Shown piece by piece: positions 18,069 through 20,710 of a stretch of 36,138 bases of DNA (within the stretch, counting starts at the first letter, position 1; every line of letters begins with the position of its first letter). A model generated the notes under the pieces. It did no database searches. It was not told the DNA's origin and was given only the letters and a program-made list of their open reading frames with translations. Source of the DNA: Methylocystaceae bacterium (lineage in GTDB: Bacteria; Pseudomonadota; Alphaproteobacteria; Rhizobiales; Beijerinckiaceae); assembly GCA_014190435.1 (NCBI GenBank), contig BJGJ01000001.1, positions 58,960 through 95,097 on the forward strand, read 5' to 3'. The position numbers were made by a program, and so were the translations under genes.

Positions 18069-18719
18069 TTACTCCGCAGCTTCAATATCAAATGCCCCTC
18101 GATCTACGCCTCCGCCAACTAAGATTTCACGTTTTCCAGAGTGATTAGGCTGACTAACGACACCTTCTTGCTCCATGCGCTCGACAATGGAAGCAGCTTT
18201 ATTATAGCCGATAGATAAACGCCGTTGGATGTAGCTCGTTGAACATTTGCGGTCTCGCAGAACTATATTAACAGCACGATCATAAAGATCGCCGCCTTCT
18301 TCTGCATCCATCGTTCCAGCTACAGGCGCTGTATCGCTATCGCCGGTATCGTCTTCCACCGTAATAGCCTCAAGATATTGTGGAGCGCCTTGAGTTTTCA
18401 AATGCGCGACAACTTTCTCGACTTCGCCGTCAGAGACAAAGGGACCATGCACGCGTGAAATACGTCCGCCCCCCGCCATGTATAACATATCGCCTTGTCC
18501 TAAAAGCTGCTCGGCACCCTGTTCCCCAAGGATTGTCCGGCTATCAATTTTTGATGTGACTTGAAAGGAAATGCGAGTAGGGAAATTGGCTTTGATCGTA
18601 CCTGTAATGACGTCAACGGATGGTCGTTGTGTCGCCATGATTAGATGAATACCAGCTGCGCGTGCCATTTGCGCAAGTCTTTGGATTGTGCCTTCAATAT
18701 CCTTGCCGGCAACAAGCAT
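18069..18719 (-). CDS. ftsK: DNA translocase FtsK, C-terminal fragment
   Basis: Second part of a split ftsK, 216 residues. It opens [17 protein letters not shown], repeating the last residues of the upstream fragment, and carries the motor segment [39 protein letters not shown] and [11 protein letters not shown]. The DNA-binding gamma domain follows ([25 protein letters not shown]). The gamma domain recognises KOPS-type polar sequences and contacts XerD in E. coli. Its ATG overlaps the stop of the first fragment as TAATG, which allows translational re-initiation. Alternatively the split is an assembly or sequencing artefact and the gene is a single ORF. An automatic pipeline might call this a frameshifted pseudogene. 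Confidence 0.85.
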
Positions 18720-18759
18720 TAGATTGCGCCTTCAATATCCTTGCCGGCAACGAGCATTA
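18684..18759. repeat. 38-bp imperfect tandem duplication inside ftsK
   Basis: Copy A spans 18684-18721 and copy B 18722-18759. They differ at two positions, both transitions (T/C and A/G). Because 38 is not a multiple of 3, the duplication breaks the ftsK frame and creates the TAATG junction. Removing one copy restores a continuous ORF. Confidence 0.97.
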
Positions 18760-20638
18760 GATCCGCCATTTCATCAACGATAACCACAATGTAGGGCAGT
18801 TTAGCGAGCTCCATCGTTTCATGTTCAAAGACTGCTTCACCCGTTTCCCGATCAAAACCTGTTTGGACAGTACGGCTGATTGACTCGCCTTTGGCCATGG
18901 CTTCAGCAACGCGCGCATTAAACCCATCTATATTCCGCACGCCGAGTTTAGACATTTTACGATAACGGTCTTCCATCTCCCGAACAGCCCATTTCAGCGC
19001 GACAACGGCTTTCTTAGGGTCTGTTACAACTGGCGTGAGGAGATGGGGTATATTGTCATAAACCGAAAGTTCGAGCATCTTTGGGTCGACCATGATTAGT
19101 CGGCACTCTTGCGGCTTTAGCCGATAGAGTAGAGATAAAATCATTGTATTTATTGCAACAGATTTGCCCGAGCCGGTTGTCCCTGCAACGAGCAGATGCG
19201 GCATGCGTGCAAGATCAACAATGACCGCTTCGCCTCCGATCGTCTTGCCTAAAGCAATCGCCAATTTATGGCTTGAGTTAGAAAAATCCTCATTTGCAAT
19301 TAACTCTCTGAGATATACGGTTTCCCTGCGCTGGTTAGGTAATTCAATGCCGATAGCGTTCCGGCCGGATACAACAGCAACGCGAGCGGAAATAGCCGAC
19401 ATAGAGCGCGCGATGTCATCTGCTAGCCCAATGACTCTCGATGATTTCACGCCCGCAGCTGGTTCGAGTTCATAAAGCGTTACGACAGGTCCTGGGCGCG
19501 CGTTGATGATTTCGCCTCTTACTGAAAAATCATCTAAGACTCCCTCTAGTAAATGTGCATTTTCCTCTAAGGCTTCCGCAGAAAGGCGCGCGCTTGCGGA
19601 TGTTTTTTTAGGCTCGGCTAACAGAGTCAATGATGGCGTTTCATAGATTTCAGATGTTTTAGTTGGACGAGAAGGCGCGCGTTGTCGACGTCTTGAAGCA
19701 GCTGGAGTGGTTTTCTCTGGGGGGGCGATCATGTGATCTAAATCTTGATCTAAATTTCGCGGTGTCGGTGCATAGCTTGGCCAGCTATCAAGCTCATCAA
19801 AAGTGGGTTCTTTTCGAACTTGAGGTGTGAGCGGCTTGCTTTCTTGAATTTTACGTCTGTTTTTTAAAGTTGTAACTTTGCGGTCAAACCAGCTTTTTAT
19901 CGCCAGGCCGGTATGAATCATCGCGCCGAAAGAAATAAGCGCAACGCCTGGCTCGCCATCTAAATCTTCATCATCATAGGCGCGTTGAGGATCTTCTTCA
20001 GGGATAAATGTATCCTCATCAACATTATTTTCAGCCTTTGCGCCCAACCCAGCTGCGCCGCTGACAGAAAGTATCGCGACAAACGCTGTCGTGACGCCAA
20101 ATATCGCCATAGCAATGCTAGCGTTGGCAAAAATTGCGCGTGGGATGGATAAAACACCATCCCCTATGAGACCACCAAGGCCTGTGGGCAAAGGCCAACG
20201 ATCAGTAGCAGGCAAGAGCGCGGCTGTGGCTGCAGAAGCGATGATACCCAAACACCATAGCCCAAGACGCCATGCCCCTCTGTCCAGACGTTGTAGCCGG
20301 ATCAATCGCATGCCTTGCATCGCAAGTGGAATAATCGCAGCTATTGCGCCAAAGCCTACCAGCTGCATGATGACATCGGCGCTAATCGCCCCTGGCGCGC
20401 CTAAAAGGTTTCTCGGCGGAGTATTTGTAGCGTGATTAAGTGAGGGGTCTTGAGCTGACCATGAAGCTAGCGCTAGCGTCAAAGCGCCAGCGCTGATCAT
20501 CATCGCCAGGCCACCCAACTGCTTCATCCGATTGGAGGTAAATTCATTGATCTGTTCGGAGAGGTGGCCTCTATGATGGCTCCGCATGATAATCATCGCT
20601 CGATTAGAAGGACAAAAAAGTTTTATCTTGTGGCGCAT
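18719..20638 (-). CDS. ftsK: DNA translocase FtsK, N-terminal and Walker-motif fragment
   Basis: First part of ftsK, about 639 residues; FtsK couples chromosome dimer resolution to division at the septum. Four or so membrane helices ([19 protein letters not shown] onward) are followed by an acidic and proline-rich linker, then the motor alpha/beta domain. That domain contains [21 protein letters not shown], Walker A GTTGSGKS (about residue 490) and Walker [13 protein letters not shown] (about residue 620). It stops 20 residues after Walker B, inside a tandem duplication, so it lacks the rest of the RecA-like fold. The two fragments together match a normal FtsK of about 840 residues. Start choices are ATG 20638, TTG 20644 or an internal ATG near 20600; I prefer ATG. 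Confidence 0.88.
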
Positions 20639-20710
20639 AAACAATGGGTCGCAACACGAAGAAGATTTTTTAAGGGTAAATTGTCTCGGTTAAGGGTTGA
20701 TTAACCCTTG

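Follow-up and report, generated by a model that had tools for sequence, protein, structure and literature searches.

The FtsK DNA translocase, represented in the PDB by entries 2IUS, 2IUT and 2IUU, is the closest described counterpart of the locus examined in this work. In E. coli, the essential role of FtsK in cell division is assigned to its N-terminal domain (excerpt of PMC2585057), so that loss of the motor alone need not be lethal. A second point of comparison is offered by termination-reinitiation gene pairs, in which translation is known to restart where a stop codon overlaps a start codon (excerpt of PMC6728339). Lastly, otherwise intact ftsK genes that run out of frame occur in public assemblies, including two of the genomes searched here (G230 and G017).

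The window, that is, the whole stretch of DNA analysed, spans 36,138 nucleotides and corresponds to bases 58960-95097 of the 95,097-base contig C1 of a draft genome (2.16 Mb, 167 contigs, 66% complete, 0.15% contamination). By ftsK, its nearest named relatives belong to Methylocystis. All four FtsK domains (FtsK_4TM, FtsK_alpha, motor and FtsK_gamma) were detected by Pfam, distributed over two ORFs (Table 1): the first carries FtsK_4TM, FtsK_alpha and motor positions 2-197 of 221, and the second the motor end (183-221) plus FtsK_gamma. Walker A and Walker B are thus on a different chain from the motor end, and the motor is not contained in a single polypeptide; the stop codon of the first ORF falls a dozen residues past Walker B. 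FtsK chains of the three PDB entries matched the first half with an E value of 3e-88 and the second with 5e-62, the cut mapping near residue 367 of 2iuu_A, shortly past Walker B. The locus therefore resembles the known translocase along both halves and differs from it in being divided into two ORFs, against one in the sister genomes. A family search of the genome returned two matches, which are the two halves themselves, and a second ftsK relieving the broken one was thus ruled out.

Table 1. Features of the divided ftsK gene, in window coordinates
Feature	Position	Strand	Remarks
First ftsK ORF	18719..20644	-	641 aa, ends at TAA; 4TM region, linker, alpha domain, motor to just past Walker B
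Second ftsK ORF	18069..18719	-	216 aa; remaining motor and gamma domain
Walker A (GTTGSGKS)	19160..19183	-	On first ORF
Walker B strand	18755..18793	-	On first ORF
38-bp unit, first in reading order	18722..18759	-	Closes first ORF; both mismatch bases are those of the six relatives compared
38-bp unit, second in reading order	18684..18721	-	Opens second ORF; derived base at both mismatches
TAATG junction	18717..18721	-	One-base overlap of first-ORF stop with second-ORF start
FtsK gamma domain	18117..18296	-	Pfam; residues 142-201 of second ORF

Tandem Repeats Finder, at its default score, returned a single tandem array in the window, at 18684-18762, with a period of 38 and a score of 144. The two units were identical at 36 of 38 positions, both mismatches being transitions, and three extra matching bases extended the array beyond two full copies. 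A 24-bp exact core lies within the repeat, and a 3-bp ATC homology is present at the duplication ends. On the minus strand the array throws ftsK out of frame; the ATG of the second ORF shares its A with the TAA of the first, the native frame resumes with no residue lost, and 12 residues are common to both pieces. One of the changes in the second copy is silent and the other replaces Ala with Thr, a residue found at that position in 8 of the 114 loci with a readable motif (116 loci were examined, two having no readable motif, and the count took in the G038 and G224 stretches L154 and L153). A programmed frameshift fusing the two halves was ruled out by eye, as no slippery heptamer precedes the stop.

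The duplicated unit with its two transitions, the break just after Walker B leaving both Walker motifs on one polypeptide, and the start of the second ORF at the junction in the native frame had all been described in the original prediction and were borne out by these analyses. The ftsK start that it placed at 20638 was instead revised: the start conserved in the six relatives looked at (MRSH...) lies at 20587, which is probably the real one.

The array was also the top-scoring one in a sample of 717,748 bases (33% of the genome), where the next scored 107 and nothing of comparable strength turned up. There were two places in this sample at which an exact 18-mer recurs within 300 bases, the present one and an array with a 12-bp period. 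The score and the rarity of such 18-mers place the array beyond chance. Two shorter two-copy tandem pairs were observed in the same genome: one of 26 bp, near-identical with one transition, in stretch L166 (3141-3192), where there is no ORF of 60 codons, and an exact one of 16 bp in stretch L165 (4059-4090).

The site was then compared with its counterparts in 36 same-genus genomes. The ftsK gene was found in 35 of them, and in 34 a single open frame continues across the site, a count that rests on open-frame lengths, with G008, G012, G017, G020 and G029 also searched with the second half. In G013 a contig end interrupts the gene, and no match was obtained in G015; none of the 36 showed ftsK split at this site, and a two-gene arrangement is thus not conserved across these relatives. 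The nearest relative, G020 (94% protein identity over the first half and 96% over the second), and the next nearest, G008 (92% and 97%), each carry an uninterrupted ftsK of 839 codons. DNA alignment with six relatives found the 38-bp unit single in each, and at both mismatch sites the first copy keeps the relatives' base while the second is changed; no array was present in the other genus members that read through. All ORFs of at least 100 codons in the G008 and G020 contigs were also compared with the window between about 15,700 and about 34,000, gene identities being assigned by reading of the ORFs. A single frame was enough to cover each of 17 other genes; ftsK was the only one that took two.

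In an order-wide search, ftsK matches were obtained in 188 of 199 genomes, our own included. Among the matches listed, open frames below 600 aa were seen, besides our own, in G230, G122, G150, G083, G206 and G199. The frame is cut by a contig end in G122, G083 and G206, as judged from contig extents, and in G150 and G199, as judged from coordinates alone, but not in G230. In the latter (a single contig of 7.15 Mb) the frame of ftsK is lost at eight consecutive A that lie between the two Walker motifs (L149 2960-3060), through either a sequencing error or a true frameshift. The same-genus G017 gene (L120 8262-10699) lies in three frames, being broken in two places within the linker and alpha region. 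Both cases differ from the present one in that a tandem duplication was not seen in them, as far as looked.

Substitution rates were estimated for the two halves separately. Against G020, dN and dS were 0.038 and 0.84 for the first half and 0.019 and 0.99 for the second; against G008, they were 0.049 and 0.85, and 0.016 and 0.96, respectively. Both halves thus look strongly constrained (dN/dS of about 0.02-0.06 in these comparisons), and a further lesion was found in neither. Codon changes private to the window numbered 116 silent and 17 non-silent in the first half (2 of the 17 lying before the likely start) and 50 silent and 6 non-silent in the second, while G008 and G020 differ from each other by 173 silent and 33 non-silent codons in the first half and by 55 and 2 in the second. 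The second half showed no significant decay: the excess of non-silent changes on the window branch (6 of 56) over that between the sisters (2 of 57) was not significant (P 0.16). If both copy differences postdate a real duplication, a neutral second half would be expected to have gathered about 17 substitutions and half a stop codon; it would have remained free of stops with a probability of 0.60, and free of both stops and indels with a probability of 0.18, assuming 0.07 indels per substitution. The lesion-free second half thus speaks weakly against long inactivity. Taken together, the uninterrupted gene of the sisters and of 34 of 36 genomes, the 17 intact other genes, the polarity of the mismatches, the constraint and the lack of further lesions argue that the break is confined to this assembly and is either of recent origin or absent from the cell.

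An assembly join of two strain variants, a working two-part FtsK and a reversible slippage switch had been proposed to account for the break, and these proved to be the right readings to weigh. The assembly join is still the best single one, by a small margin, and we assign it a probability of about 0.5, a figure of judgement rather than of computation. On this view, reads from two closely related strains would have been merged, or a single chimeric molecule taken in, with the 38-bp overlap left twice: one variant, with the ancestral letters, would have supplied the upstream part and the first copy, and the other, carrying both transitions, the downstream part and the second copy. In the cell, ftsK would accordingly be a single ORF, as it is in the sisters. 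We infer this origin from the two mismatches, the soundness of each half and the intact state of the other 17 comparable genes, a combination that a two-strain join fits best. The copies of a recent real duplication should be identical, and these differ at 2 of 38 positions with the derived bases all on one side; the Thr variant occurs naturally, as a strain variant would. The join is further favoured by the read-through in 34 of 36 same-genus genomes, the nearest two having a single copy of the unit, by halves constrained as expected for a gene working as one piece, and by the draft state of the genome, with its 167 contigs and 66% completeness.

Several observations run against the assembly join. 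Masked stretches set aside, no Ns and hence no scaffold gaps occurred within the 718 kb of genome sampled. The contigs thus show no sign of scaffolding, and the simplest kind of joining error loses weight accordingly; any join would have to stem from chimeric molecules or from an assembly step free of Ns. Each short word of a de Bruijn contig normally derives from reads, and a pure joining error is therefore hard to explain. The diverged pair of short tandem copies in L166, outside long ORFs, would also be expected from a real mutational habit, and the ATC homology at the ends is as in real slippage. A second strain variant of the region was absent from the bin, where the only extra match was weak (28 bases, E 0.14). 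Finally, identity to both sisters, taken per 100 columns, shows no step at the junction. A lineage change at this point was accordingly discarded as far as a distant genome is concerned; a join between close strains would stay invisible to such a comparison.

The next reading in order, a real recent tandem duplication that inactivated the FtsK motor in the sampled population, appears doubtful. Slippage between the ATC homologies would have produced the second copy; the membrane part needed for division would still be made, and the translocase and gamma domain would be lost or poorly made. The original prediction had held FtsK to be normally essential or important, a claim that applies here to a limited extent, the domain named as essential in E. 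coli (excerpt of PMC2585057) being whole in this genome according to Pfam. The 3-bp homology, the 0.60 probability that a neutral second half is still free of stops and the non-silent share of that half, whose excess is not significant, are all compatible with inactivation. Against it stand the undamaged state of both halves (P 0.18 for the second, at the assumed indel rate), the lack of a replacement ftsK in the genome and the two mismatches, which exceed the expectation for a fresh duplication.

That the two ORFs form a working two-part FtsK is in our opinion unlikely, and an assembly fault or a recent chance mutation is more likely than such a protein. Translation would resume at the overlapping ATG once ribosomes had ended the first ORF, and the resulting pieces would assemble into one motor. 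The one-base overlap on the same strand, established as a setting for termination-reinitiation (excerpt of PMC6728339), is real, keeps the native frame and leaves the residues complete, and both halves are lesion-free and highly constrained. The weight of this overlap was evaluated by duplicating in silico every stretch of 20-60 bases, at lengths not divisible by three, in the ftsK genes of the two sisters, and by counting the products in which stop and start overlapped by one or four bases, the ATG lay in the native frame and every residue was kept. Such tight junctions arose in 2.8% and 4.8% of the 63,727 duplications simulated in each gene, and in 5.4% and 9.6% of the 2,362 cases with 38-bp units. 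The neat TAATG is therefore an ordinary by-product of a frame-breaking duplication, and weak evidence for two working parts.

The ribosome-binding signal ahead of the second half is ordinary as well. Its Shine-Dalgarno match of -2.8 kcal/mol lies between the medians of 16 window gene starts (-3.5) and 211 internal ATGs (-1.5), and is equalled or bettered by 27% of the latter. Restart at the second ORF is possible, and nothing shows design. The locus thus differs from termination-reinitiation pairs in that the arrangement is not conserved in relatives, the Shine-Dalgarno match is not unusual and the junction is frequent by chance; the cut also falls inside the RecA-like motor. Re-initiation had been put forward with more weight than these data give it: the TAATG stood, while its chance rate of 3-5%, the ordinary signal and the lack of any relative sharing the split left it weaker than suggested. 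Slightly less probable is the fuller form of this reading, a chromosomal FtsK whose two polypeptides come from a single mRNA through restart at the TAATG that the duplication created, with the 12-residue overlap aiding docking, which would represent a single-step origin of a two-subunit motor.

A reversible switch turning the motor on and off by gain or loss of one copy is very improbable: the 24-bp exact core could in principle recombine, but there are just two, imperfect copies instead of several identical ones varying in number among relatives, the unit being single in the six relatives compared by DNA and no array occurring in the other genus members that read through.

If the break is an artefact, it illustrates how a core gene can falsely appear divided in a strain-mixed draft genome, at a stop/start junction neat enough to mislead. 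For other cases of this kind, the random-duplication control supplies a baseline frequency of such junctions. If the two halves are instead real and working, they would illustrate how a single-chain motor can become a two-subunit one in one step.

Some features of the source lineage were also recorded. A 317-aa tyrosine recombinase of the window genome, G000 (G000:C10:22195-22638), matches those of G008 and G020; a second one, of 312-314 aa in both sisters, was not found in G000, a genome only 66% complete. No match to PF02461 (particulate methane/ammonia monooxygenase) was obtained in G000, G008, G020 and G015, against three in G022, and none to PQQ_2 (PF13360) in G000, G008 and G020, against six match rows in G022; since 11,090 of the 61,401 bases sampled from G008, listed as 98% complete, read N, these family absences are not certain. 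The Methylocystis relatives G000, G008 and G020 have small genomes (about 1.6-2.2 Mb, compared with the 3.8 Mb of G022), and the GC content of the window is 47%, against 62-64% in the sampled stretches of G022. From their sequences, these three genomes appear to represent a reduced lineage, in which methane oxidation may have been lost.
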